Positions 47,649 through 62,556 of a DNA stretch of 64,000 nt are shown piece by piece. The stretch's first letter is position 1, and every line of letters starts with the position of its first letter. Source of the stretch: Nitrospirales bacterium (GTDB lineage: Bacteria > Nitrospirota > Nitrospiria > Nitrospirales > UBA8639); the NCBI GenBank assembly GCA_021604005.1, contig BQIV01000027.1:1-64000 (forward strand), written 5' to 3'. A model generated the notes under the pieces. The model was not told the origin of the DNA. It saw nothing but the letters and a program-made list of their open reading frames with translations, and did no database searches. The translations under genes were made by a program, and so were the position numbers.

Positions 47649-48296
47649 ATGAGAGTTTGCAGAGGCAAGGGTGGATCCGTCGTGTTGATGTTACTGACGT
47701 TCGCTATGTGTGTTGGTGTGGGGACTGGCCACGCTCAGGAGGCTTCAGATACAGAGAGACGAGCAGAAAAGACAGCATTAATCGTAACAGAGGAATATAT
47801 CATAGGGCCTGAGGATGTTCTGGAAATTAGTGTGTGGAAAAATACAGATTTATCTCGAGAAGTCGTCGTAAGACCCGATGGACGTATTACTTTGCCATTG
47901 ATTGGAGACGTGAAGGCCGTTGGTCGAACGACGCAAGAACTTAGACAGGAAATTACACAGCGGTTAAGTGCGTATAAGGAAAGTCCTACGATTGCCATTG
48001 TTGTGAAGGCTGTAAATAGTTACTACTATTATGTTCAGGGTGCCACAGGGACGAGCGGGAAGCTTCCGCTCTTGAGTCGCACAACGTTGGTTCAGGCCAT
48101 CACCTTAGCCGGTGGGTTAACTCCGGATGCCGTAAGGAGTCGGATCGTCATTTTTCGACTAGGAGTCAATGGGGATGGGTCGGATAAGCTGATTGTTAAT
48201 TATGATGATATTATTCTGCGCGGAGCAGAAAATGTTGTGATTAAACCGGGTGACACGATTGTTGTGCCTTCGGAGACTATGGTGTTGTTACCTTGA
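47649..48296 (+). CDS. Wza-like polysaccharide export protein (first copy)
   Basis: The 215-aa protein has a signal peptide ending in GTGHAQ, no lipobox Cys, then a Poly_export domain (IIGPEDVLEISVWKN...VVVRPDGRITLPLIGDV) and an SLBB-type domain (YYVQGATGTSGKLPL). It belongs to the outer-membrane or periplasmic exporter family that passes exopolysaccharide through the envelope. GAGGTGA precedes the ATG. It is the first gene of the EPS locus and is closely related to the next gene. Confidence 0.9.
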   Translation: MRVCRGKGGSVVLMLLTFAMCVGVGTGHAQEASDTERRAEKTALIVTEEYIIGPEDVLEISVWKNTDLSREVVVRPDGRITLPLIGDVKAVGRTTQELRQEITQRLSAYKESPTIAIVVKAVNSYYYYVQGATGTSGKLPLLSRTTLVQAITLAGGLTPDAVRSRIVIFRLGVNGDGSDKLIVNYDDIILRGAENVVIKPGDTIVVPSETMVLLP

Positions 48297-48339
48297 GCTT
48301 TCTACGAATTCAAAATTTTCAGGATAGGCGGTGGAATAC

Positions 48340-48945
48340 ATGATCCGATGCAAACATCTGTTCTTTGTCCTGTTGATTGTTCTTATTTCTACCTTTCTCT
48401 TGGGTTGTCCACGGCCCGATGTCATCGTGCCTCCCGGTCCTCCGGAAGAAGGGTTTCTTTTGGGTCCTGAAGATGTCTTGGATGTTGTGGTGTGGAAAAA
48501 TGAAGACCTTTCGAAGGAAGTGGTTATTCGTCCAGATGGGAAGGTTTCATTACCGTTGATCGGAGATGTTCCTGCTGCAGGCCTCACTGCTGATCAACTT
48601 GCCGAAGAAATCGAAGAACGCTATAAAGCCTTCAAAGAAAACCCGGCTGTGTCTGTCAATGTGATTGAAGTGAATAGCTATTACGTGTTTGTTGTAGGCG
48701 AGGTGAACAGTCCTGGCAAACTTCAGATGAAATCCTACACGACAATTTTACAGGCGGTCTCTCTTGCGGGAGGCTTCACGCAATTTGCCTCACAAAATGA
48801 TATCCGCATTATCAGGAATGTCTTGAATGGTGATGGGAAAGTCAAAGAATTACGGATTCCCGTTCGGTACGATGACCTTATTTCTGACGATGGCGCGGCG
48901 TACAATGTGACCTTGCAATCAGGGGATACGATTGTCGTTCCTTGA
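48340..48945 (+). CDS. Wza-like polysaccharide export lipoprotein (second copy)
   Basis: ATG at 48340 follows GGTGG at 5 nt. The signal peptide ends in the lipobox LLGC, so this copy is lipid-anchored, unlike the preceding one. Poly_export and SLBB domains follow (FLLGPEDVLDVVVWKNEDLS, YYVFVVGEVNSPGKLQM). The two paralogues share about half of their residues over the central part by eye and may form a mixed channel or be alternative forms. Confidence 0.9.
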   Translation: MIRCKHLFFVLLIVLISTFLLGCPRPDVIVPPGPPEEGFLLGPEDVLDVVVWKNEDLSKEVVIRPDGKVSLPLIGDVPAAGLTADQLAEEIEERYKAFKENPAVSVNVIEVNSYYVFVVGEVNSPGKLQMKSYTTILQAVSLAGGFTQFASQNDIRIIRNVLNGDGKVKELRIPVRYDDLISDDGAAYNVTLQSGDTIVVP

Positions 48946-49068: not shown

Positions 49069-51456
49069 ATGGAATCAGGAAACATCTCAAATTCAAGTAG
49101 TGCGAGTGGCGGCGATAATCTCATGATCCAGGCCTATCTGGAGGAACTTTTGGACATTGCCGTCCGCCGGAAGTGGTTGATCATCAGTATCGTCCTCCTC
49201 TGTGTGGTGGCTTCTGGAGTGTTTGCTTGGAATCAGCCTGAAATTTATCGTTCGAGCACAACGATTTTGGTGGAACATCAAAAGATTCCCGGCAATATCG
49301 TGCGACCTATGGTTGCCGATGGGGTGGCCGAACGAGTCTCGACCATTACACAGCGAGTTCTCAGCCGTACCAGTCTGCAAAAAGTCATTGAAGAGCTGAA
49401 TCTATACCCGGAAATTATCAAGAAAGATGGGTATGATGCCGTGATTGCTGCTCTTGCTAAAAATGTCACCTTAGAAACAAAGGGGTCACGAGGTCGCTTG
49501 GAGTCGTTTACGATTTCATACGCGCATGGCGATCCCATGACTGCGATGAAAGTGACGGCCAAAATTGCTTCTCAATACATTGATCAAAATTTGAAGATCC
49601 GTGAGCAGTTTGTGGAGGGAGCGTCAGAATTCCTTAATCAGGAGTTAGAAATAGCTCGGAAGGAATTAGACGAAAAGGAAAAGTTATTAAGCGAGTTTAA
49701 ATTGAAACATGTCGGACAACTACCTGGGCAACTGACGACCAATCTTCGAAGTTTGGATCGACTCCAAGCCGAGAAGGAATCCATTCAGGAGTCGTTGAAT
49801 AATCTGAGTACGAGGGTGGAACTGACTAAGAAGTCCATTCGTGACTATGAAGCTATGGCAGGAACGATGGCGGACATGTCAAGTTTTAATCCAACCGGCG
49901 CGACAGGTGCTCCAATGGCTGACCCGCTCGTGCAACGTTTGGAGGCGATGAAGGAAGACCTGGCTAAAATGTTAGTGGAATATACCGAGTCTTATCCCGA
50001 TGTCATTTCATTGAAAAATCATATCAAACGGCTTGAAACCGAAATTGCAGAGCGAGATACGCTTGATATGGGGTCAGAGGAATCTCTTGCCGATGATTTT
50101 CTAGCTGAAGGATTGGGCGATTCGTCACAAAAATTTGATCCGTATCTTCAAGACTTACTCAATACCCAAGCTGAACTCAAAATGCAGATTCAGACGCTGA
50201 AGTCTCGGGGGAAGAACATTGATGCCGATATGGCAAAATATCAGAAGAATATTGAAGTCACTCCGCAATACGAACAAGAGTTACTGGTGTTGCAGCGTGA
50301 CTACGCCAATATGCGGGAAAACTACCAGCGTTTGCATGAAAAACAACTCAATTCTCGAATTTCTGAAAATTTAGAAAAACGGCAAAAAGCTGAGCGATTC
50401 CGAATCCTGGACCCCGCAAATTTGCCAACAATTCCAGAAGGCCCGCCGCGCTACCTCATTGTGCTTGCGGGATTTGTGGTCGGGTGTGGTCTTGGATATG
50501 GCTTGGCGTTTATTCTCGAGCAATGGAAGCCAACGTTTCGTCGTTCTGAAGATGCGGAAGTCTCCATTGGATTGCCAATTCTTGCAACGATTCCCAGTTT
50601 CCAAATTGCCTATGGAAAGTCCTTCAAGAGTCTCTCGCATACACCATCGGAGTTGAGTCCTGGGCCTCGCGATGACCGTGGCTTGAGTGCGCATTACCTC
50701 CCGCAGGGGTTTCCAGTGAAAACCACAAATGGGAAGTCTGGAAATCATTCGAAAAATGGATTTCCTCAAGAGCTTGGACTTGTCGCCAAATGGAGGCCCG
50801 GGTCCATAGTTGCTGAGCAGTTTCGAGTGGCTGCGACAAGACTCAATCTTATGCATTCGACGCAAGAAGGCACGGTAGTTCTTGTCACGAGTTCCATGAA
50901 AGGTGAAGGGAAAACTTCAACAGTGGCGAATCTCGGGTACACACTCGCGAATGATCTCAATGAATCGACCCTCGTCATTGATTGTGATTTCAAACGTCCA
51001 GCCGTGCATGAACTCATGTCGATATCGAGTGAGCCGGGACTTGCCGAGTATTTTCATGGGGAAGAACCACTTGAAGCCTGCATGCATCAAGTGTCTGATG
51101 GTCCGCTTTGGACCTTGACCGTCGGAAATATCAAAGAGTTTCCCGTTCCGCTTTCCAAGTTTCCGCAACTGGCGTCGGTCATTGAGTCGTTAAAGCCACG
51201 GTTCCGCTATATTCTGTTAGATTCTCCTCCTATTCTCCCATTGGCTGATATTAATGCCTTGACCGGCCTGGCCGAAATTCTTCTCTTCGTCGTTCGATCG
51301 GGAAGTACACCCAAAGATGTTGTGATGAAAGCAACCGATATGCTGAAGACAACGGCGCAGGCTCGTTTAATATTGACCGATGCCTGGTCTCAAGGGATGC
51401 CCTATTATGTGCGACAAGGTTACGAAGTGCCTTATGCCATTGGCGAAAGAGGATGA
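49069..51456 (+). CDS. Wzc-like chain-length regulator fused to a tyrosine kinase
   Basis: Residues about 32-52 and 460-485 are transmembrane helices that enclose a Wzz domain with long coiled coils. The C-terminal BY-kinase domain has Walker A in SSMKGEGKTSTVANLGY (about 606), Walker A' in IDCDFKRPAVHE and ILLDSPPILPLAD. A C-terminal tyrosine cluster (YYVRQGYEVPYAIG) is available for autophosphorylation. It controls polymer length and export together with the Wza-like proteins. Length 795 aa. The gene ends in ATGA overlap with the sugar transferase gene. Confidence 0.93.
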   Translation: MESGNISNSSSASGGDNLMIQAYLEELLDIAVRRKWLIISIVLLCVVASGVFAWNQPEIYRSSTTILVEHQKIPGNIVRPMVADGVAERVSTITQRVLSRTSLQKVIEELNLYPEIIKKDGYDAVIAALAKNVTLETKGSRGRLESFTISYAHGDPMTAMKVTAKIASQYIDQNLKIREQFVEGASEFLNQELEIARKELDEKEKLLSEFKLKHVGQLPGQLTTNLRSLDRLQAEKESIQESLNNLSTRVELTKKSIRDYEAMAGTMADMSSFNPTGATGAPMADPLVQRLEAMKEDLAKMLVEYTESYPDVISLKNHIKRLETEIAERDTLDMGSEESLADDFLAEGLGDSSQKFDPYLQDLLNTQAELKMQIQTLKSRGKNIDADMAKYQKNIEVTPQYEQELLVLQRDYANMRENYQRLHEKQLNSRISENLEKRQKAERFRILDPANLPTIPEGPPRYLIVLAGFVVGCGLGYGLAFILEQWKPTFRRSEDAEVSIGLPILATIPSFQIAYGKSFKSLSHTPSELSPGPRDDRGLSAHYLPQGFPVKTTNGKSGNHSKNGFPQELGLVAKWRPGSIVAEQFRVAATRLNLMHSTQEGTVVLVTSSMKGEGKTSTVANLGYTLANDLNESTLVIDCDFKRPAVHELMSISSEPGLAEYFHGEEPLEACMHQVSDGPLWTLTVGNIKEFPVPLSKFPQLASVIESLKPRFRYILLDSPPILPLADINALTGLAEILLFVVRSGSTPKDVVMKATDMLKTTAQARLILTDAWSQGMPYYVRQGYEVPYAIGERG

Positions 51457-52511
51457 TTGACTCTCACTTAGGTGATCTACCGCATGTTATGTCGGAGCGC
51501 GTTGGGTTCCTGGAGCGGCTCTTTGAAGTCCTAGGTCTTCGAAGGAGGGTGTTAATCCTTGGCGATGGAGGTTTGGCGAGTAATCTTGCCCGAGTGCTCG
51601 TTACCAATGGACGAAGTCGATTTGATGTCGTTGGATTTTTATCCAAGAATCTTGCTTCCGTCAGTACCTCTTCTTCCATCCCTCCGGTCATTGGGACAAT
51701 TGATCAACTGTTTGAAGTAACCGAGAACCATCGTGTGCAAACCATAGCTGTCTGTTTTGAAGATCGCCGTGGAACGATGCCGCTGGATGCCTTGCTGGAT
51801 ATTAAATCCCTAGGCGTTGAAGTGGTCGATGGGCATCGAATGTATGAGGCGGAATGCGGACGGTTGAGTATTGATGAGCTGAAGCCGAGTTTTTTGATTT
51901 TTTCTCAAGGGTTTCGACGTAAACCGGTCGTGATGGTTTTGAAGCGGTTGGTTGATGTCCTTGGTGCCTCGTTAGGGTTGCTTCTTTTAGCTCCGCTGCT
52001 TCTCATCATTGCAATACTCGTTAAACTCGATTCACATGGGCCTGTGTTTTATCGACAGACTCGAGTCGGCCTTCATGGGTATCCCTATGTGCTTCGAAAG
52101 TTTCGTTCCATGAAGCATAATGCCGAAGATGATGGCGCCAAATGGGCCTCTGTGTCGGACGATCGTGTCACGAGGATAGGCTATTGGTTACGGCGGTTGC
52201 GGCTTGATGAATTGCCGCAATTTATCAATGTGCTGAAGGGAGAAATGAGTCTTGTAGGACCAAGGCCTGAGCGTCCGCATTTTGTGCAAGACCTTCGGAC
52301 GTTTATTCCGTTTTATGATCTTCGGCATACCGTTCGTCCTGGGATTACCGGGTGGGCACAGACATGCTTCCAGTATGCGGCGTCATTAGAAGATTCGCAT
52401 ATGAAGTTGCAATATGACCTCTATTACGTGAAAAATCTTTCGCTATGGCTCGACATTCGAATCTTGCTTCGGACGTTTCATGTCGTGCTGCTAGGGACCG
52501 GGGCGCGGTAG
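51453..52511 (+). CDS. exopolysaccharide sugar-1-phosphate transferase (PEP-CTERM/XrtA type)
   Basis: The 352-aa protein has the C-terminal bacterial sugar transferase domain: one membrane helix (LGASLGLLLLAPLLLIIAILV), FRKF/LRKFRSMKHNAEDDGAKW, LDELPQFINVLKGEMSLVGPRPE and GITGWAQ. It starts polymer assembly by moving a sugar phosphate to undecaprenyl phosphate. A Rossmann-like N-terminal part remains, but the multi-helix membrane bundle found in many family members is missing. Its start overlaps the kinase gene stop. Confidence 0.9.
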   Translation: MIDSHLGDLPHVMSERVGFLERLFEVLGLRRRVLILGDGGLASNLARVLVTNGRSRFDVVGFLSKNLASVSTSSSIPPVIGTIDQLFEVTENHRVQTIAVCFEDRRGTMPLDALLDIKSLGVEVVDGHRMYEAECGRLSIDELKPSFLIFSQGFRRKPVVMVLKRLVDVLGASLGLLLLAPLLLIIAILVKLDSHGPVFYRQTRVGLHGYPYVLRKFRSMKHNAEDDGAKWASVSDDRVTRIGYWLRRLRLDELPQFINVLKGEMSLVGPRPERPHFVQDLRTFIPFYDLRHTVRPGITGWAQTCFQYAASLEDSHMKLQYDLYYVKNLSLWLDIRILLRTFHVVLLGTGAR

Positions 52512-52532
52512 GGGGTTGAGGGAGTGAGAAAC

Positions 52533-53468
52533 GTGACTCATAGTTTAAGTTTTGATATTGAAGAACACTTTCAGGTTGCAGCCTTTGATTGCCCGGCTCG
52601 GCGTCGGCATTGGGAGGTGCTTCAAAGTCGGGTTGAAAAGAGTACGGACACCATCCTGACGTTGCTTGATTCAGCGAACGTGAAAGCCACCATGTTTATT
52701 CTGGGTTGGGTGGCTGAGCGGCATCCAGGAATGGTAAAACGGATTGCCGATGCCGGACATGAAATCGCCTGCCATGGCTATTCACATGAACTTATTTCCG
52801 TGCAGAATCCAACAACCTTTCGCGAAGACATCAGGTGTGCGAAGAACATTCTCGAAGATATCACAGGACAGGCTGTTCTTGGCTATCGTGCTCCAACGTT
52901 CTCGATTACAAAAGAAACAATGTGGGCCTTGCCCATCCTTGTAGAAGAAGGCTTTCTGTACGACTCAAGTATCGTTCCGGCCATGCATGATTCCTATGGA
53001 ATTCCTGATGCCAGTCCGAGGGTTCATTCCCTTGAGACAAGCTCGGGAATGCTCTGGGAAGTGCCACCGTCGACTTGTAAGGTGGCATGGCTGCGTATTC
53101 CTGTTGGTGGAGGGGGGTATTTCCGTCTTTTCCCATATTCAATCTTCCGTTGGTTTCTTCACAAAGTTGAACGGGAAGGACATTCTTTGGTTATGTATTT
53201 CCATCCATGGGAACTTGATCCTGAGCAACCAAAGATGAACGGGTCGCTCCTTTCGAAATTTCGTCATTACGTAAACCTTCAGAAAACGCAAAAACGAATG
53301 ACGTGCCTTCTACAGGATTTTCAATTTTCGCCAGTGCGTGACGCTCTCCCTTCTTCCCCTTCTCCTTTTGGGCAACATCCAGTCTCAGGCCAACAAGATG
53401 AAGAGATTGAATCATTTGTGAGTCTCCCTGATCATTCAGACTCAACGAATAGTTATACGCCTAAATAG
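52533..53468 (+). CDS. PEP-CTERM-system polysaccharide deacetylase
   Basis: GTG at 52533 is preferred; it has GGAG at 8 nt and gives THSLSFDIEEHFQVAAF, the usual family opening. The NodB-type deacetylase motifs are FDIEEH (metal Asp), HGYSHELI (HxxxH) and GYRAPTFSI. A C-terminal extension with YFHPWELDPEQP belongs to the PEP-CTERM-associated subfamily. It would remove acetyl groups from the polymer. Length 312 aa. This gene type ties the locus to exosortase-dependent surface display. Confidence 0.92.
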   Translation: MTHSLSFDIEEHFQVAAFDCPARRRHWEVLQSRVEKSTDTILTLLDSANVKATMFILGWVAERHPGMVKRIADAGHEIACHGYSHELISVQNPTTFREDIRCAKNILEDITGQAVLGYRAPTFSITKETMWALPILVEEGFLYDSSIVPAMHDSYGIPDASPRVHSLETSSGMLWEVPPSTCKVAWLRIPVGGGGYFRLFPYSIFRWFLHKVEREGHSLVMYFHPWELDPEQPKMNGSLLSKFRHYVNLQKTQKRMTCLLQDFQFSPVRDALPSSPSPFGQHPVSGQQDEEIESFVSLPDHSDSTNSYTPK

Positions 53469-53908: not shown

Positions 53909-55096
53909 ATGAATATTTTATTCCTTGCCCCTCATCCCTTCTATCAAACGCGTGGAACCCCCATTGCCGTGGATATGCTCTTAAGAGTGCTTGCTGAACG
54001 AGGAGAGTCGGTTGACTTAATCACGTACCATGAAGGAAGCGATGTCCAGTATGAGCAATTGACGGTACGTCGGACTCCCAAGTTTCCGTTTGGCAAAGAT
54101 ATTCCACCAGGTTTTTCCCTGAAGAAACTTGTGGCTGACGGCTTGATGGCAGTGCAGGCGGTTCGGCAATCTTGGAGAAAACGATACCATGTTGTTCATG
54201 CGGTTGAAGAATCCGTGTTTATTGCGTTGGTGCTCAAGCTGATGTTTCGAGTTCCGTATGTGTATGACATGGACTCTTCGTTGGCGCAACAAATGATGGA
54301 AAAGTATCCACGGTTACGCCGATGTGCCTTTCTTCTCAACTATTGTGAATCCGTTGCCTTAAAGCACGCGCTTGTCGTTCTTCCGGTATGTGATTCTCTT
54401 GGGCACATTGCCTTGAGTCATGGCCACCCTCATGTCCGGACACTGCATGATGTGCCCATGTTTGATGAAGGATCCCATGAGGAGTCCGACAGTCTTCCTC
54501 GTGGGGTTCAGCAGGGTCGGTTGAGAGTGATGTATGTTGGAAATTTAGAAACGTATCAAGGCATCGACCTCCTCTTAGAGAGTTTCTCCCTTATTTCGTC
54601 AGAAGCCGATCATGTCGACTTAGTGATTGTGGGTGGAGCAAAGGAGGATATTCACAAGTACCAGGAAAAATCCAACGCGTTGGGGGTGCAAGATCGAGTA
54701 TCATTTTTAGGTCAAAAACCTATTTGCCGATTAGCCTCATTTCTCGCGGAAGCCGATATTCTGGTTTCGCCACGGATTCACGGACACAATACTCCGATGA
54801 AACTGTATTCCTATCTGCAAAGTGGAAAACCTATTGTAGCAACGAATTTACCAACACATACCCAAGTGCTTACGAAAGAGGTAGGCATACTCGCTGACCC
54901 CTATCCTGATGCATTTGCCCAAGGGATGCTCTGTCTGATTCATGATCAGGAACTCGCCCTGAAAGTTGGTTTGGCTGGTAAACAGTTAGTAGAGCAAAAG
55001 TTTAGTTATGCCGCATTTCGTGAAAAGGTCAATGATCTGTATAACTGGCTTGAGACAGACCGTGAACCTTCCACGACAATCCCAGGGGCAGGGTGA
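53909..55096 (+). CDS. GT4-type glycosyltransferase
   Basis: The 395-aa GT-B fold enzyme has an N-terminal acceptor domain (HPFYQTRGTPIAVDMLLRVL), a GT4 C-terminal domain with DRVSFLGQ and SPRIHGHNTPMKLYSYLQSGKPIVATN. Donor and acceptor are unknown; the context says EPS repeat-unit assembly. Confidence 0.88.
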   Translation: MNILFLAPHPFYQTRGTPIAVDMLLRVLAERGESVDLITYHEGSDVQYEQLTVRRTPKFPFGKDIPPGFSLKKLVADGLMAVQAVRQSWRKRYHVVHAVEESVFIALVLKLMFRVPYVYDMDSSLAQQMMEKYPRLRRCAFLLNYCESVALKHALVVLPVCDSLGHIALSHGHPHVRTLHDVPMFDEGSHEESDSLPRGVQQGRLRVMYVGNLETYQGIDLLLESFSLISSEADHVDLVIVGGAKEDIHKYQEKSNALGVQDRVSFLGQKPICRLASFLAEADILVSPRIHGHNTPMKLYSYLQSGKPIVATNLPTHTQVLTKEVGILADPYPDAFAQGMLCLIHDQELALKVGLAGKQLVEQKFSYAAFREKVNDLYNWLETDREPSTTIPGAG

Positions 55097-55453: not shown

Positions 55454-56233
55454 GTGGAGAGCATGATTTCGGCCAAATCTGAGCAGGTGATTGAAAAAAA
55501 GCCACTTGTGAAAAGCTTAGCAGAACCGCAAACCTCTGCCTTGAAGAAGTACCAGATGTTCTTTGTGGGTTCTTCCAGTTTTGGGGCGTTACTGAAGTTT
55601 GAACTGGTGACGATGTTGTTTGGTCCGCTGCCTGGCGCTCTTGGCTTGATACTCCGGAAGCAGTTGTTTCCGTCATTATGTAAAAAAGTTGGGGCAGGGG
55701 TCGTGTGGGGACGAAATATTTCTCTCCGACATCCAGGGAAAATCGAACTTGGTGATCGCGTGGCCATTGATGATTATTGTTTGGTGGATGCGAAAGGCGG
55801 GGAAGCTCAAGGCATTACTATTGGGAACGATGTGTTGGTCGCACGGAGTTCGATTATTCAAGCCAAAAATGGCCCCATAGTGATCGGAGACTCTTGTTCA
55901 ATCGGAAGCCAATGTCAGTTGAGCTCAGTCGGTGGCATAACCTTGGGACGGTCGGTCATGATGGCGGGGCAATGCTATATTGGTGGCGGGCGGTATCATA
56001 CCGCTGACAGAGAGATCCCTATGATGGAGCAGGGGTTGTACTCTCAAGGTCCCGTTGTCATTGGGAATGACGTCTGGATCGGCTCCGGTGTGATTGTGCA
56101 AGATGGGGTGAGGATTGGCAATGGATGTGTCATTGGATCGGGTGCCGTTGTCACTGAAGACATTCCTGATTTTGCGATTGTCATTCCGAATAGGAAACTT
56201 TTGTTTCTTTCTCGAGGTGAGTCATTGTCATAG
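55454..56233 (+). CDS. hexapeptide-repeat acyltransferase
   Basis: The 259-aa left-handed beta-helix protein contains many [LIV]-G-x4 hexapeptides ([58 protein letters not shown]). The catalytic-type histidine is in [16 protein letters not shown]. The family transfers acetyl or other acyl groups to sugars. GTG start; ATG 55463 is an alternative. It is directly followed (51 bp) by the E1/E2/ACP module, which could supply its acyl donor. Confidence 0.85.
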
Positions 56234-56284: not shown

Positions 56285-58246
56285 ATGATTTCTGAAAAAA
56301 CAACGCAGGTTGGCCTCCATCTTCACGCGAAAGCGATCCTTATTCGACGTGTCGAGCAGAGGTTGCTTGAGCTATTCAAGGAGGGACGGTTGTTTGGGAC
56401 TGTGCACACCTGTATTGGGCAAGAATGGACTGGGGTGGCAGTTAGTGAGGCATTACAAGATGGAGATCTGATTTTCAGTAATCATCGATGCCACGGTCAT
56501 TATTTAGCGAAAACGGGGGATGTCGAAGGGCTTATCGGTGAAATCATGGGAAAGCAGAACGGCATGTGTGGCGGCCGAGGAGGGAGTCAGCACATCTGTT
56601 CTCAAGGGTTCTACAGTAACGGAATTCAAGGCGGCATTGTTCCGGTATCTGCAGGTCTTGCCATGGCTCAAAAAATGACCGGAACGGGGTGTATTGCGGT
56701 CGTGTTCATTGGAGACGGAACATTGGGTGAAGGCGCACTCTACGAAACGCTCAATATTGTGTCTAAGTGGGAATTACCCTTACTCGTTGTGCTGGAAAAT
56801 AATTACTATGCTCAGAGTACGTCTCAGCATCAGACCTTGGCCGGTAACATCTTGGCACGTGGTGAAGCGTTTGGGATCAAGAGTGCTCATGCCAACACGT
56901 GGGAAACAGAAGAGCTTATGATGACGGCTGCCAGCTCTGTTCAGTATGTCCGAAGCGAATGCCGACCACTCTTTTTACAAATTGACACGTATCGGCTTAT
57001 GGCTCACTCCAAAGGTGACGACGACCGGGACCCGGAGGAAGTCAAAGAATATTGGGCTAAAGATCCCATTGAACTCTTCCGTCAGCAGACCACTCCGAAG
57101 GAAATCGAAGAGATTGATCGACAGATCCAAGTGAGCATTGATGCAGCGGTGTCACGGTCCGATGCGACACCCTATTCTGTCGCAAGTGCGATACATGACG
57201 AAGAACCTGTCTCAACGACTGTGGAATGGACCCCAACGCAGATTCAATCGACCGAACGAATGGTGAATGCGATTCATCTCTCACTGCAGCGTAATATGCA
57301 ACGGAATGACAAGATTGTCTTGATAGGGGAAGATATTGAAGGACCCTATGGTGGAGCCTTTAAGGTGACCAAGAATCTGAGTCAAGAGTTTCCAGGGCGC
57401 GTCCGAAACACGCCAATTAGTGAGTCGGCATTAGTAGGATTAGGTAATGGGTTGGCACTCAACGGATTACTCCCTGTGTGCGAAGTCATGTTTGGTGATT
57501 TTCTGTGTTTGGCATTCGATCAACTGTTAAACCACGCCTCGAAATTCCGCTATATGTATAACGAGCAAGTACGTGTGCCGTTGGTTGTGCGAACCCCTAT
57601 GGGGGGAAAGCGTGGCTATGGGCCGACGCATAGTCAAAGTATCGAGAAGCATTTCATGGGCCTGCCAGGGACTCGAATGTTGGCTCTACATTCTCGATTT
57701 GATCCGGGGCTTGTCTATGATGAAGTCTTTTCGTCCATCGATCGGCCGACTATTATGATTGAGAATAAATTGCTCTATGGACTTCGTGTTACTGATCAGG
57801 TTCCCGGTGGGTTTGTGCTTGAACAGAGTCATGAGCAATTCCCCACGACACGTATTCGTCCGTTGAGCACCCCTGATCTTACGGTGTTGTGTTATGGGGG
57901 TATGCTGGTCGATGTTGAGCGTGCGATCCAGGAGTTGTGCGATGAACATGAGGTGCTGTGTGAAGTCTTGTGTCCTCTCCAGTTATATCCATTTAATCCT
58001 TGGCCGGTAATCGAATCGCTTCACACAACGCGCAAGCTGATGATTGTGGAAGAGGGAATCGGTTTTGCCGCTCTTGGCTCTGAACTGTTGGCTCAGATTT
58101 CCGAATATCAGCCAGACCTTCTTCAGCACGTGTGTCGTGTCTCGTCACCGATGCACCCAATTCCGTCAAGCGGACCTCTTGAGAAAGAATGTCTTCCCGG
58201 TGAAAGTCATGTCGTGAAAACAGCCTTAACGATGATGAATCTATGA
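56285..58246 (+). CDS. fused E1 alpha-beta 2-oxoacid dehydrogenase (ThDP enzyme)
   Basis: Residues 1 to about 310 are E1-alpha, with the ThDP motif starting GDGTLGEGALYETLN at residue 143 and ending ENN, and the NHRCHGHYLAKTGD segment. Residues about 320-653 are E1-beta, with GEDIEGPYGG and TPISESALVGLGNGLALNG, whose glutamate activates ThDP. The alpha and beta parts are separate genes in most pyruvate-type complexes; here they are fused. The start follows an EPS acyltransferase gene by 51 bp and the stop overlaps E2 by 4 bp. Substrate (pyruvate, branched oxoacid or a ketose) is unknown. Confidence 0.92.
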   Translation: MISEKTTQVGLHLHAKAILIRRVEQRLLELFKEGRLFGTVHTCIGQEWTGVAVSEALQDGDLIFSNHRCHGHYLAKTGDVEGLIGEIMGKQNGMCGGRGGSQHICSQGFYSNGIQGGIVPVSAGLAMAQKMTGTGCIAVVFIGDGTLGEGALYETLNIVSKWELPLLVVLENNYYAQSTSQHQTLAGNILARGEAFGIKSAHANTWETEELMMTAASSVQYVRSECRPLFLQIDTYRLMAHSKGDDDRDPEEVKEYWAKDPIELFRQQTTPKEIEEIDRQIQVSIDAAVSRSDATPYSVASAIHDEEPVSTTVEWTPTQIQSTERMVNAIHLSLQRNMQRNDKIVLIGEDIEGPYGGAFKVTKNLSQEFPGRVRNTPISESALVGLGNGLALNGLLPVCEVMFGDFLCLAFDQLLNHASKFRYMYNEQVRVPLVVRTPMGGKRGYGPTHSQSIEKHFMGLPGTRMLALHSRFDPGLVYDEVFSSIDRPTIMIENKLLYGLRVTDQVPGGFVLEQSHEQFPTTRIRPLSTPDLTVLCYGGMLVDVERAIQELCDEHEVLCEVLCPLQLYPFNPWPVIESLHTTRKLMIVEEGIGFAALGSELLAQISEYQPDLLQHVCRVSSPMHPIPSSGPLEKECLPGESHVVKTALTMMNL

Positions 58247-59643
58247 ACAGTATTCCAGTCATTATTCCCCAGGACAATGTGAACGACGAATCCGTGACCT
58301 TGTTGTCTTGGTCTGTTGCCAATGGAGAGCTCGTGTCACAAGGGCAAGCAATTGCTGAAATCGAGACAAGCAAGGCCGTGATGGAAATAGAGGCCCCAGC
58401 CGCCGGAATTTTAGAGTATTCGCTTGAACCAGGTAGCGATATTGATGTTGGAGCCTTGTTATGTCGTATTCGTAGTGAAGCGCAAGAAGGTGAAGTTGGG
58501 AGTGAGTCGCTTATGACGGAAGATGTGTCGGTCGCTTCAGTGGATGTCAAAACAAACGGTCAAGGTTCTCAGGCTCTTCCCGCAAACGAAAATAATCAAA
58601 CGCACTTTACAAAGAAAGCGCAAGCATTGCTAGAGCAACGTGGCCTCCCACTTGAACGTTTTGCAGGTCGAGGCCTTGTCCGGACAACAGATATCCTGCT
58701 TGAATTAGGTGAAATGTCTCCAACGCAGACACCGCCTCCTGCCCAGCGAACTGTTGTTCAAGGGGAGCGGTCGATCTCTCGGGTATCACCGATCCCGGCG
58801 TTTGGTATTCCCTTTCAAACAGAAAAGTTATCAAAAGGCAAACGAACCGAAATCGGGTATTTGTCCTCAGGCTCTCAGAATGCGTTGCCAAGCGTGATTA
58901 CGGTGGCGGTCCCAACCAGAGGTCTTCGAGCAGCGGTTGAACAGCATAAGCATATTGATGCATCGGTCACTGCCGTCATTCTTTTTGAAGTCGCGCGATT
59001 GTTGCGTCACTATCCATGGTTTAATGCGTTTTATCAAAATGGACATGTGAATGTGTATGACGAAGTGAATATTGGGTTTGCTATTGATGGAGATTTTGGC
59101 TTGAAGGTTCCGGTGATCCGCACTGCGGATACAAAAAGTATTGCTGAGATTACCAATGAGATCCAAGAATTAATGATCGCATACCTCGAGAATACGCTTT
59201 CCAGTGCCAATCTTCAGGGTGGTACGTGTACGGTGACAGATTTGTCAGGCGAGGGAGTCTTTGCGTTTCATCCGCTTCTCAATCAGGGCCAATCAGCAAT
59301 CCTGGGTGTCGGAGGAGAGTTTTTTCTGCCCGGAAGTCGAGAAGGAATCTTTAACCTGATATTAGCGTTTGATCATCAAGTATCTGAGGGTCGTCAAGCG
59401 GCCAGGTTTTTACGCGAACTCGGTGAGCATCTTCAGGCATATGAGGCTGCCCTTGCTGGAGCTTCGTCTAGTGATCAAGACGCAGAAGATGTAAGCAGGC
59501 TCAGTTGTGCACGTTGCCTTACTCCGCTTGCCGATATTCAAGAATGGGATAAATTTGAACATTGGGATCACTTTATGGTGCCAATGGTGAAGCCTGACGG
59601 ACAGCGTGGATATTTGTGTAGTGTCTGCGTGAGGGGGTGGTAG
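58243..59643 (+). CDS. 2-oxoacid dehydrogenase E2 with C-terminal zinc ribbon
   Basis: One lipoyl domain (residues 1-80) has the modified lysine in EIETSKAVMEIEAPAAG (about K44). A subunit-binding domain (about 120-155) is followed by the catalytic acyltransferase domain (about 215-405). The active-site motif HRxxDG reads DHQVSEG, so His is kept but the Asp is Glu. Residues about 424-466 add SCARC ... LCSVC, a Cys4 zinc-ribbon tail not normally present in E2 proteins. No E3 gene is near. The gene is translationally coupled on both sides. Confidence 0.9.
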   Translation: MNSIPVIIPQDNVNDESVTLLSWSVANGELVSQGQAIAEIETSKAVMEIEAPAAGILEYSLEPGSDIDVGALLCRIRSEAQEGEVGSESLMTEDVSVASVDVKTNGQGSQALPANENNQTHFTKKAQALLEQRGLPLERFAGRGLVRTTDILLELGEMSPTQTPPPAQRTVVQGERSISRVSPIPAFGIPFQTEKLSKGKRTEIGYLSSGSQNALPSVITVAVPTRGLRAAVEQHKHIDASVTAVILFEVARLLRHYPWFNAFYQNGHVNVYDEVNIGFAIDGDFGLKVPVIRTADTKSIAEITNEIQELMIAYLENTLSSANLQGGTCTVTDLSGEGVFAFHPLLNQGQSAILGVGGEFFLPGSREGIFNLILAFDHQVSEGRQAARFLRELGEHLQAYEAALAGASSSDQDAEDVSRLSCARCLTPLADIQEWDKFEHWDHFMVPMVKPDGQRGYLCSVCVRGW

Positions 59644-59651
59644 GCATTCGT

Positions 59652-60332
59652 ATGGAACAGGAACTGAAGCAAGTCGTTGCCGAGTTGTTTGATACGAACC
59701 TTCAGCAAATCACCACTGATTTTCTCTTGTCCACAAGGCGTATGCAAGGCTCCTTGGCCAGGGCGAAGCTTGATGCGGCCATCCGACATCGTCTTGGGGT
59801 GAAATGTCGTGGAGTCTATTCGGCTCAAACCTATGGTGAATTGCAAGAAGCTGTGCTTGGGGGTTCTGCCAACGGTGCCGAGACGCATGCATCCGCCTCG
59901 AAGGTTTTGGCTGTGACGAATACGGAGACTTCTGCGGCGGTGGCAGCCAATCGTATTGGGACGGCACCTGTGCTCAGTTGCGGAATTGATATTGAAATGG
60001 TCGAAAGCTTTCCTGAGGTGGACGACTATTGGAAGGACTCCTTTTATACAAGCTCATTTTCATCTGTTGAGATTGCGTATTGTCTTCTGCAGGAACATCC
60101 CCGTATGCATTTTGCAGCTCGCTGGTGCGCAAAAGAAGCACTCAAAAAATGTCAACCGTTGTACCTCCACGAAGCAATGAATCATCTGGAGTTAGTGTCT
60201 CCCGATGAGGGCCCGCCAATGCTTCGACATTATCAACATGGAACGTCTGTCCCTATCCCTTTTGCCGTGAGCATTTCCCATACTCAACACATAGCTATTG
60301 CAATGGTTGTGACGCAGGTTGCGTTGCCTTGA
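59652..60332 (+). CDS. acyl-carrier domain fused to a phosphopantetheinyl transferase
   Basis: Residues 1-70 look like an acyl carrier protein (helix LKQVVAELF, then MQGSLARAKLDAAI in place of the usual DSLxxxEL, then VYSAQTYGELQEAV); the Ser near residue 34 is kept but the Asp is Gly. After a linker, residues about 112-226 form an AcpS-like transferase with GIDIEMVESF and WCAKEALKKC, the family's two signatures. ATG 59652 is preferred (TAGG 7 nt upstream); GTG 59637 is possible and overlaps E2. The fused transferase could load its own carrier domain. Confidence 0.78.
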   Translation: MEQELKQVVAELFDTNLQQITTDFLLSTRRMQGSLARAKLDAAIRHRLGVKCRGVYSAQTYGELQEAVLGGSANGAETHASASKVLAVTNTETSAAVAANRIGTAPVLSCGIDIEMVESFPEVDDYWKDSFYTSSFSSVEIAYCLLQEHPRMHFAARWCAKEALKKCQPLYLHEAMNHLELVSPDEGPPMLRHYQHGTSVPIPFAVSISHTQHIAIAMVVTQVALP

Positions 60333-60501: not shown

Positions 60502-60536
60502 GTTGAGATATCTGAGCCTGGGTTGCATGGTCCCGT

Positions 60537-60700
60537 TATAGCCGTTTCAGTTATGACGAATCAGTGCTCCATCGACCTACTGTATTCTGATTGACCCTTC
60601 GTCATTGAACCGTCAATCGTATACAGGTCATCCAAGCGGACATAACCTTCCTCATGTAAACGCGGTACCGCGCGGAGCTATAGCCGATTCACATAACTTC
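60537..60700 (+). mobile_element. MITE-like repeat, copy C (3' end unclear)
   Basis: It starts TATAGCCGTTTCAGTTATGA. It shares with copies A and B the blocks AACCGTCAATCG, CAGGTCATCCA, CATAACCTTCCT and GCGGTACCG, and has GGAGCTATAGC at 60675-60684 as in copy A. The right end typical of the family is not found, so it is truncated near 60700. Confidence 0.65.
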
Positions 60701-60799
60701 CTCTTGTTTGCAGTGAGTCATGGACGCGCAATGAGTCATATAGTCTTTTAACTTTTTCTCAGTACCTATGACCTGACGCCTTCAGGCCAGTCTGCTGAG

Positions 60800-60963
60800 T
60801 GAACGCCTCTCATAGTGGGCGGGGCTTGTTTGAGCGCAGCGAGTTGGCACGCCCCACCAACCGGGGTTCATCTCATCCCCGACGAGCCTGGCCTGGGCGT
60901 TCATGGTTTTGGGTCCTTTTGCCGAAACAAAAGGGCCTCGGCTGCCGGGACGAACCCCGGCAG
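60800..60963. repeat. GC-rich segment with two consecutive hairpins
   Basis: CCTTTTG-CCGAAA-CAAAAGG at 60915-60934 and CTGCCGGG-ACGAAC-CCCGGCAG at 60942-60963 are perfect stems of 7 and 8 bp. The upstream part is clearly richer in G+C than its surroundings. It resembles high-copy intergenic repeats of the REP/BIME type; frames through it on both strands (60782-61018, 60815-61006) are not supported as genes. Confidence 0.5.
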
Positions 60964-61045
60964 AGAGCAAAAACCTAGGACGATAAGCAGTGCAGGTGAT
61001 GAATGAGGGAAGAAGCAATATTTTTAAGCAAAAGCTCCTCTACCA

Positions 61046-61220
61046 CTATAGCGAATCCACATACGTTCAAAACAGGAAAATGCAGCTAACCCAGCACGGT
61101 ACAACGATTGGATCAGCGGAAGTTATTGGAAACGGCTATAGCATTTTCCAGACAAATAGGTCTTCATGAAAAGTTAAAAAACTATACTTTATCGCGTGGA
61201 ACGTATGTGGATTCGCTATA
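61046..61220. mobile_element. MITE-like element with perfect 22-bp terminal inverted repeats, copy D
   Basis: Bases 61047-61068 (starting TATAGCGAATCCACATACG) are repeated exactly in inverted orientation at 61199-61220. The ends begin with TATA, as expected if insertion duplicates a TA dinucleotide like IS630/Tc1-type elements (inference). The inside contains GGAAAATGC and GGTACAACG words shared with other copies. No ORF. It lies 88 bp upstream of the flippase-like gene. Confidence 0.85.
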
Positions 61221-61308
61221 AGCTGTAGTGTTGAGGCTGTACTGTGATTCAGAGAAAGATCAAAACATCTATGCATGATGGTGGTATTTGGGAATTGGAC
61301 GACGTGCA

Positions 61309-62274
61309 ATGAACTACGCCTTTTGGTTTCGTCTTGCGGTGAGTTTTGTTGTCACGATTGTGCTCATTCGAGTCATTGACTGGGACGCGTTGCCCGGGCT
61401 GGATGATATTACTGTTGGCTATCTGTTTGGTGCCGGATTGCTGGTTATTCTCAATCGGTTGGTGAATGCCTATCGGTGGTATCTGCTCATTAATGATTCG
61501 TCGTCGGTTGTATGTCTTCGTCATGTTGTGGGAATTTATTTCAAAAGCTCATTTGTTGGACTTGTAATGCCCACGAGTGTCGGAAGTGAATTTTTAAAAG
61601 GCTATGGACTCATGAAGTCAGGGGCTGGAGCTATTGATTCATTTTCTTCGATCTTTATGGAACGACTCCTCGGTCTCCTCTCGTTACTCGGATCTGCGTT
61701 GATAGGTTTTTTGTTTTTAAATATTCAATTGGACGAAATACACGCACTAGCGATTGGTCGAGTGTTTGGGGTTTTCTTGACTTTGATTGTTGGTAGTCCT
61801 ATCGCTTGTTACTTTTTCATTCCTTGGGTTGAGAAACGACTGAATCCTCAATCTAAGTTTGCCTTGTTGATTCTGAAGCTACGTCATGCCTTTTTCTTTT
61901 ATCAGAACATTAAAGCTCGATTGCTTTTGGCTTTTCTGCTGTCTTTTAGTATTCAAGGATTTCGTATTTTGGGCGCCTGGCTGGTTGGATTAGGTATAGG
62001 TGTGTCCGTGGAGTTTGCATATTATGTCTTATTCATTCCGATCATTTCCTTGATTAGCATGCTCCCTATATCCATTGCGGGTCTTGGGGTTCAAGAAGGC
62101 GCATATGTCTATTTTTTTTCGTTGACGGGAACCAATACAACGATCATTCTTGCAATGGCGCTTGTGTTGCGATTTTTGTTGATTTTTGCCGTTCTTCCAG
62201 GAGGTGTCCTATACTTACGGGAAGGCCTTTGGAAAAACTCAAACCTGAAGAAAACGATCAATCCGCAGATATAG
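61309..62274 (+). CDS. flippase-like integral membrane protein (UPF0104/LPG-synthase TM family)
   Basis: I take ATG 61309 as start; the frame is open from 61288. The 321-aa protein has seven to eight transmembrane helices and the family motifs AYRWYLLI near the start, MPTSVGSEFLKGYGL and LPISIAGLGVQEGAYVYFFSL. The family includes the membrane half of lysylphosphatidylglycerol synthase and putative lipid or glycan flippases. Position next to the EPS locus suggests a lipid-linked substrate. The gene is bracketed by repeat copies D and E. Confidence 0.82.
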   Translation: MNYAFWFRLAVSFVVTIVLIRVIDWDALPGLDDITVGYLFGAGLLVILNRLVNAYRWYLLINDSSSVVCLRHVVGIYFKSSFVGLVMPTSVGSEFLKGYGLMKSGAGAIDSFSSIFMERLLGLLSLLGSALIGFLFLNIQLDEIHALAIGRVFGVFLTLIVGSPIACYFFIPWVEKRLNPQSKFALLILKLRHAFFFYQNIKARLLLAFLLSFSIQGFRILGAWLVGLGIGVSVEFAYYVLFIPIISLISMLPISIAGLGVQEGAYVYFFSLTGTNTTIILAMALVLRFLLIFAVLPGGVLYLREGLWKNSNLKKTINPQI

Positions 62275-62278
62275 CTGT

Positions 62279-62556
62279 TATAGCCGATTCAGTTATACCG
62301 AAACGAGAAAGCGCCACCTTGTACACATTTGCCATTCAATACGTGATAGGCAACGTCAAGCATGGTCAGTCAAGCCAAGAGGGTATAATCTTCCGATGTT
62401 TGACGCGTTGGATATCGCGCAGAAATTCCTTACTTGGGCACCTGTAATGGAGATATGCGTAGCCAGTATGATCACAACAACGATTGCCCATCAGGTGCAA
62501 CCGGGTCGCTCAACAACCGTGTCCAAGCATACTGATGTATATTCGGATTCGCTATA
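62279..62556 (+). mobile_element. MITE-like repeat, copy E (278 bp)
   Basis: From TATAGCCGATTCAGTTATAC at 62279 to CGGATTCGCTATA at 62556. Ends are of the same family as copies A-D, with imperfect inverted repeats; the inside differs from copies A-C, so it is another internal variant. It begins 5 bp after the flippase-like gene's stop codon. Confidence 0.65.

Follow-up and report, generated by a model that had tools for sequence, protein, structure and literature searches.

In a window of 64,000 nucleotides from a Nitrospirales bacterium (Nitrospirota, UBA8639; contig BQIV01000027.1, positions 1 to 64,000 of the forward strand), three consecutive open reading frames (ORFs), overlapping or abutting one another, lie 3' of the gene of a hexapeptide acyltransferase (HexAT) in an exopolysaccharide (EPS) locus and encode a thiamine diphosphate (ThDP)-dependent E1, a lipoyl E2 and a carrier domain fused to a 4'-phosphopantetheinyl transferase (PPTase). 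We consider it probable that this trio is a self-contained loader, which charges an acyl carrier protein (ACP) and thereby feeds a glycan acyltransferase. An earlier, sequence-only reading of this DNA had proposed that an acyl unit from a 2-oxoacid or ketose passes via E1 and E2 to the carrier for decoration of the polysaccharide. This role is supported by the recurrence of the trio in other phyla, by the exchange of the trio for an acyl ligase plus ACP in sister genomes and by fusions of lipoyl domains with hexapeptide enzymes in more distant relatives; HexAT as the recipient, the acyl group, the acceptor and every chemical step are what we infer. The ORFs and domain types named in that reading, including HexAT upstream, were confirmed by ORF positions and Pfam, and for the carrier domain by fold and profile evidence. 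HexAT and E1 genes are separated by 51 nt, E1 and E2 genes overlap by 4 nt, and the carrier/PPTase gene starts either with a GTG inside the end of the E2 gene or with an ATG 8 nt past it.

Recurrence of the trio and its exchange in sister genomes

The full trio was found in five lineages, namely the window's genus, two Acidobacteriota (L101 and L102), an Opitutaceae genome (L039) and an Elusimicrobia genome (L036), and in four of these it lies beside polysaccharide or surface-acylation genes together with an acyltransferase, which is a hexapeptide enzyme in three and an MBOAT-SGNH pair in one. The co-occurrence suggested by the sequence-only reading is thereby seen outside the window's genus at three of the four full-trio loci (L101, L102 and L039), L036 having no acyltransferase gene adjacent. 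In L102 the trio stands among GT4, Wzy, GT2 and Wzx genes with a hexapeptide gene 70 nt 3', and in L101 it is accompanied by a sugar dehydratase, an ABC polysaccharide exporter, a GT2, a hexapeptide gene and two E2 copies. The Opitutaceae trio has an MBOAT gene immediately 5' and an SGNH-like gene immediately 3', and the C-terminal end of this MBOAT, FIYFQF, matches FXYXXF, an acyl-Tyr shuttle motif on record (PMC12148441). As EPS loci are rich in hexapeptide genes, more weight belongs to the return of the trio in EPS loci than to its lying beside hexapeptide genes.

Among 396 sampled Nitrospirota genomes and those of the window's genus, the carrier/PPTase fusion was confined to four of the five genomes of this genus. 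All four keep the trio operon, and its genes show dN/dS values of 0.04-0.12 against the nearest relative, indicating purifying selection; conservation and selection together argue that the operon is not a product of chance. Relatives of the E1 (E up to 1e-90) are present in 6 of 289 genomes in the phylum of the Opitutaceae genome, 10 of 255 in that of the planctomycete (L035), 3 of 160 in that of the elusimicrobium and 4 of 247 in that of the acidobacterium, many of them belonging to a more distant type with 34-39% identity. Widening the search to the order to which the Opitutaceae genome belongs brought up no second copy.

Orthologues of HexAT at 88-93% identity are confined to those genomes of the genus that have the trio; homologues at about 40% occur in G004, the genus genome without the trio, and in g5, another genus of this family. 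Three g5 genomes have a syntenic EPS locus in which the HexAT homologue is followed by an AMP-forming acyl ligase and a stand-alone ACP with a DSI motif, the fullest order (L125) being EpsB_2, deacetylase, GT4, FAD oxidoreductase, methyltransferase, epimerase, HexAT homologue, ligase and ACP. The same slot behind HexAT holds E1, E2 and the carrier/PPTase fusion in the trio-bearing genomes, and an asparagine-synthase-like gene in G004, so that the swap is not universal. The g5 ligase scores 252 bits against the XrtA-type model (TIGR03098-like), below the cut-off of 592 bits. The ACP was missed by phmmer with E. coli AcpP and was recognised by eye, then by alignment and by weak PP-binding matches below the cut-off. 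Since both arrangements yield a charged carrier, something in the locus should need acyl-ACP, and the exchange argues that this component is, most simply, HexAT.

Gene fusions give the most direct indication that hexapeptide enzymes are supplied from acyl-lipoyl groups. In a verrucomicrobial genome (G602, L093:10780-11877), a lipoyl domain with the motif ETSK, a binding-type linker domain and a serine-acetyltransferase-like hexapeptide enzyme form one protein, encoded directly 3' of a fused E1 and near Wza-like and chain-length genes. In Chloroflexota, an operon of split E1a and E1b continues with a gene that joins a lipoyl domain to a sugar acyltransferase of the PglD type (L041:1135-4281; L143-L146); this order is kept in all five genomes with the fusion, at 45-49% identity to L041, and here the acyltransferase itself takes the place of the E2 catalytic domain.

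Components of the proposed loader

Matches of the E1 to the Pfam models E1_dh (172 bits), Transket_pyr (89) and Transketolase_C (43) make it a complete E1. In the tree it falls among 14 sequences that form a clade with support 99/98; they come from Nitrospirota, Acidobacteriota, Planctomycetota, Elusimicrobiota, Verrucomicrobiota and from a sponge symbiont of the Gammaproteobacteria, whose RenH, encoded on the renieramycin plasmid, is the closest named E1 with 48.6% identity to that of the window. The organism's own two pyruvate dehydrogenase (PDH)-like E1 sets on contig C7 fall outside this clade. Among the features that clade members share, the Lys of an HSQxxEK motif, which sits near the catalytic His, is present in all 14 members and in the split Chloroflexota E1 and in none of seven outgroup E1s, and it may bind a sugar phosphate. 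A GPTH near HSQ was considered as a transketolase signature and dismissed as not diagnostic, because other E1s carry G[AP][ST]H and only the following Lys is clade-specific. A second, more distant E1 type (36-39%), fused or split, was observed in Planctomycetota and Verrucomicrobiota (L100, L103, L097 and L099), mostly with no recognised E2 gene adjoining. G004 gave no E1 match at 1e-10 and may lack PDH-type E1 genes.

The E2 matches 2-oxoacid_dh (131 bits) and Biotin_lipoyl (47 bits) in Pfam, and its profile spans the lipoyl, linker and catalytic domains of PDH E2s with PDB structures (E 8e-63). Among 14 aligned E2 sequences the lipoyl Lys44 is invariant and the catalytic His378 is kept in 13, most having DHxxxEG in place of DHxxxDG, and a zinc-ribbon-like CxxC...CxxC tail is confined to the Nitrospirales, L034, L101 and L102 proteins. 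The two E2 copies in the polysaccharide locus of L101 (L101:4718-8865) differ at the active site, the first lacking the catalytic His (DARIVSGR) and the second having it. The possibility that E1 and E2 are the organism's PDH was rejected in view of the separate sets on C7.

For the carrier domain (residues 1-75) no Pfam model matched up to E 1, PF00550 included. One serine, in the setting G/S-S-x (GSL or SSL), is invariant in all nine homologues, and AlphaFold places it at the first turn of a long helix II whether the full-length protein or only the domain is modelled. A Foldseek search of the PDB with this domain returned ACPs or ACP-holding complexes for nearly all of the best 50 matches (probability 1.00, TM about 0.6-0.73), with weak E-values of 4e-3 at best. 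Profile-profile comparison (hhalign) with carrier proteins aligned the serines at E 7e-6 and a probability of 84%; a profile search of PDB sequences gave noise and a single weak ACP match (E 0.8). The domain is also found as a stand-alone 73-aa gene 3' of E1 and E2 in one Elusimicrobiota genome (L096). We take it as a divergent ACP, modelled as a helical bundle with the serine at the start of helix II.

The PPTase half scores 41.2 bits against PF01648 (ACPS; cut-off 25), its catalytic residues D118, K166 and E167 are invariant, and its fold resembles AcpS and the PPT domain of fungal FAS (Foldseek). It was considered as the housekeeping AcpS and rejected, the genome having two other PPTase genes. 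A PPTase acting in cis would suit a non-DSL carrier that is poorly recognised by housekeeping AcpS, which makes the fusion suggestive. The sequence-only reading depended on a carrier that can be pantetheinylated, and retention of both the serine and the catalytic residues of the fused PPTase is consistent with this.

That reading had further noted a missing E3 gene and regarded this as fitting a non-oxidative or shared-E3 reaction. The absence itself holds, as no E3 gene lies in the trio's neighbourhood. Acyl transfer from ThDP to lipoamide always yields dihydrolipoamide, however, and requires an oxidant, so that E3 is needed whichever acyl group is carried, because the lipoyl arm ends reduced. 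Moreover, a genuine E3 is encoded on another contig (G000:C8; 528.5 bits, cut-off 408.8), and the missing gene was on these grounds rejected as a sign of non-oxidative chemistry. A degenerate E1/E3-binding domain is visible in the E2.

Proposed mechanism and competing explanations

In the mechanism that we propose, the PPTase half would attach phosphopantetheine to Ser34 of its own carrier half, and E1 with ThDP would use a 2-oxoacid or a ketose phosphate as the source of a small acyl precursor for reductive acylation of the E2 lipoyl Lys44. The E2 catalytic domain would then pass the acyl group to the carrier thiol, not to coenzyme A (CoA), HexAT would place it on a hydroxyl or an amino group, either of the polysaccharide or of its nucleotide-sugar precursor, and a shared E3 would reoxidise the lipoyl group. 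As to the acyl group, weighed jointly by judgement and not by computation, we tentatively favour glycolyl (hydroxyacetyl, from a ketose phosphate) because the E1 falls in a clade with RenH and the Nap and Din enzymes are fed by ketoses (PMC7570522). Acetyl is the main alternative and a lesser but real possibility, because 2-oxoacids were the proposed substrates of the pepteridine enzymes (PMC5384830); any other group is rather unlikely.

Several observations weigh against this mechanism. The HexAT homologues at about 40% sit in loci without the trio, and the named families nearest to HexAT, WbbJ and WcaF, use acetyl-CoA, so that acyl-ACP need not be the substrate of HexAT. In L101 and L102, the hexapeptide enzymes encoded next to the trio are of different subtypes, and no glycan acyltransferase adjoins in L036, L095 or L096; the trio of L036 is flanked by a POTRA protein gene 5' and, on the opposite strand, a polysaccharide deacetylase gene 3'. 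The carrier domain, finally, has GSL or SSL in place of the DSL motif and no PF00550 match.

Alternatively, the trio might load acyl-ACP for a diffusible secondary metabolite or lipid, HexAT being an ordinary acetyl-CoA O-acetyltransferase and the EPS placement incidental. To judge from its relatives, the E1/E2 pair is a general loader and not EPS-specific, because without the carrier/PPTase fusion it occurs in nonribosomal peptide synthetase (NRPS) clusters, namely the renieramycin cluster (RenH/RenI) and an acidobacterial one (L034:2-18145), which combines an NRPS with a terminal reductase, a LanB-like protein, DAHP synthase, MbtH, E1/E2 and a lipoyl-synthase-like radical SAM gene and may be an uncharacterised tetrahydroisoquinoline-type cluster. 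A planctomycete (L035:10001-15235) has an isolated unit of E1, E2 and a carrier-sulfotransferase-thioesterase protein with no NRPS or polyketide synthase (PKS) genes noticed nearby. The occurrence of HexAT homologues without the trio points the same way. We nevertheless regard this explanation as unlikely, considering that no NRPS, PKS or thioesterase gene was seen at 40-64 kb of the window, that the full trio recurs with polysaccharide genes across unrelated phyla and that ligase and ACP take the identical slot behind HexAT in sister genomes. We see a very slim chance that HexAT, as PglD does, N-acylates a nucleotide amino sugar before polymerisation rather than forming an ester on the polymer. 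The Chloroflexota lipoyl-acyltransferase fusions are of the PglD type, one of them having a sugar transferase on one side and a DegT aminotransferase on the other. Against this, the O-acetyltransferases WbbJ/WcaF are the nearest to HexAT, next to which no aminotransferase was noticed in the window.

That E1 and E2 are an ordinary 2-oxoacid or acetoin dehydrogenase giving acyl-CoA for HexAT, with carrier and PPTase serving something else, is very unlikely. Both are clear PDH-family homologues and an E3 is available in the genome, yet they score far under all NCBIfam equivalog cut-offs (226.7 against 393.9 bits and 134.7 against 722 bits), two PDH-like sets are already present on C7, the E2 and carrier/PPTase genes, which overlap or directly adjoin, stay linked in different phyla, and the closest named E1 comes from an NRPS cluster. 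A carrier half that has lost its function, the gene acting as a PPTase only, is hardly credible: the GSL/SSL setting and the missing Pfam match would allow it, but the serine is invariant in 9 of 9 homologues including the stand-alone 73-aa carrier, the model is ACP-like with this serine at the start of helix II, and dN/dS is about 0.12.

Glycan acyltransferases are generally thought to be fed by acyl-CoA, or by ACPs charged by ligases or fatty-acid synthesis. Whether the trio and its relatives represent a third, CoA-independent route of glycan decoration seems to us evenly balanced; along this route, a ThDP E1 would pass two-carbon groups of central-metabolic origin, possibly glycolyl, via a lipoyl group to a dedicated ACP, or directly to a fused hexapeptide acyltransferase as in L093 and the Chloroflexota, for polysaccharides or amino sugars in several phyla. 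If true, 2-oxoacids or sugar phosphates would be directly linked by ThDP/lipoyl supply to the decoration of the coat, glycolyl or related groups invisible to routine acetyl assays would be predicted, and a loader of antibiotic assembly would also serve cell-surface chemistry. An E1 gene that adjoins either an ACP-PPTase fusion or a lipoyl domain fused to a hexapeptide enzyme provides a gene signature for finding such decorations; it is seen here in one lineage of Nitrospirales and in members of several further phyla, for the most part known through metagenome assemblies. In addition, cis-dedicated pantetheinylation becomes a question of interest, given the fusion of carrier and PPTase and the non-canonical GSL site.

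Setting of the locus and comparison with known systems

By three upstream genes above curated NCBIfam cut-offs (TIGR03007, 288 bits with cut-off 279; TIGR03013, 414 with 393; TIGR03006, 364 with 276), the locus is assigned to the XrtA/PEP-CTERM type of EPS loci, and the upstream EPS gene order is the same in L040 and L092 (Table 1). Non-coding stretches at 60535-61220 and 62277-62302 contain several inverted repeats, one of 22 nt with 100% complementarity, and a 26-nt direct repeat, resembling leftovers of small mobile elements.

Table 1 Features of the EPS locus and of the trio, with positions in the window
Feature	Position	Strand	Basis or remark
Polysaccharide export protein	47649-48296	+	Named by position and sequence, outside the family library scan
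Second polysaccharide export protein	48331-48945	+	Named by position and sequence, outside the family library scan
Chain length determinant/tyrosine kinase	49069-51456	+	NCBIfam curated cut-off passed
Sugar transferase EpsB_2	51453-52511	+	NCBIfam curated cut-off passed
Polysaccharide deacetylase	52524-53468	+	NCBIfam curated cut-off passed
GT4 glycosyltransferase	53909-55096	+	Pfam Glyco_trans_1_4 and Glycos_transf_1, 84/83 bits
HexAT, left-handed beta-helix acyltransferase	55454-56233	+	Pfam Hexapep 50.6 bits; nearest type WbbJ/WcaF
ThDP-dependent E1 alpha-beta fusion	56285-58246	+	653 aa; alpha about residues 1-298, beta about 320-653; Pfam
Lipoyl E2	58243-59643	+	466 aa; Pfam; alignment of 14 E2 sequences
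E2 lipoyl domain	58243-58473	+	Lys44 codon 58372-58374
E2 degenerate E1/E3-binding domain	about 58612-58719	+	
E2 catalytic domain	58897-59454	+	His378 codon 59374-59376
E2 C-terminal CxxC...CxxC tail	59494-59640	+	Alignment
Carrier/PPTase gene	59637-60332 or 59652-60332	+	GTG start, 231 aa, or ATG start, 226 aa
Acyl carrier domain	59652-59876	+	Ser34 (ATG numbering) codon 59751-59753, in GSL; candidate phosphopantetheine site
PPTase domain, AcpS/fungal FAS-PPT type	59967-60332	+	PF01648 41.2 bits; fused in cis to carrier
LPG_synthase_TM-like (flippase-like) membrane protein	61288-62274	+	Pfam PF03706 113.6 bits; 3' of trio in L092 too

Compared with the PDH complex, the trio shares the E1 and E2 folds, the lipoyl lysine and the catalytic His, but it differs by scores below the equivalog cut-offs, the lack of an adjoining E3, the mostly DHxxxEG motif and the extra carrier and PPTase. 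The acyl ligase and ACP (TIGR03098-like) of the sister EPS loci take the same place directly behind HexAT and activate a free acid with ATP, whereas the trio would use a ThDP-bound intermediate. The Dlt carrier is charged with an amino acid by an AMP-forming ligase. From such a dedicated carrier protein, the acyl group of the Dlt system reaches a polymer of the cell surface by way of MBOAT and SGNH proteins (PMC12148441). The Opitutaceae trio, flanked by MBOAT and SGNH-like genes, is similar to it in this respect; in the window, charging would be by E1/E2, and a hexapeptide enzyme adjoins the trio instead of MBOAT and SGNH genes.

In naphthyridinomycin-type clusters, a PDH-like ThDP enzyme and a lipoyl E2 load a two-carbon unit onto a phosphopantetheinyl carrier (PMC7570522). 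The systems of these tetrahydroisoquinoline antibiotics (NapB/NapC/NapD, DinS/DinT/DinU, QncN/QncL and RenH/RenI) combine, like the trio, a ThDP E1, a lipoyl E2 and a carrier; the trio of the window differs from them in having no NRPS genes, a carrier fused to its own PPTase, a polysaccharide locus as its surroundings and HexAT as the likely recipient. The pepteridine pathway of Photorhabdus (plu2792-2799) likewise primes a carrier with an E1 and a lipoyl E2, the latter as an E2-T-C fusion, and has no E3 in the cluster, the host E3 being presumed to act (PMC5384830); in contrast to the trio, its acyl group goes to a pterin via a condensation domain, and neither a PPTase fusion nor polysaccharide genes are present. 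Nothing relevant on such a module with polysaccharides was found in the literature, which was covered in part; within this coverage, the parts and the loading principle are already known, and the polysaccharide placement, the carrier-PPTase fusion and the lipoyl-hexapeptide fusions were not found described. By analogy, the trio would work like the Nap, Qnc, Ren and pepteridine loaders and, its likely recipient not being of the NRPS type, stands beside them rather than among them in the narrow sense, with its link in sequence running via RenH.

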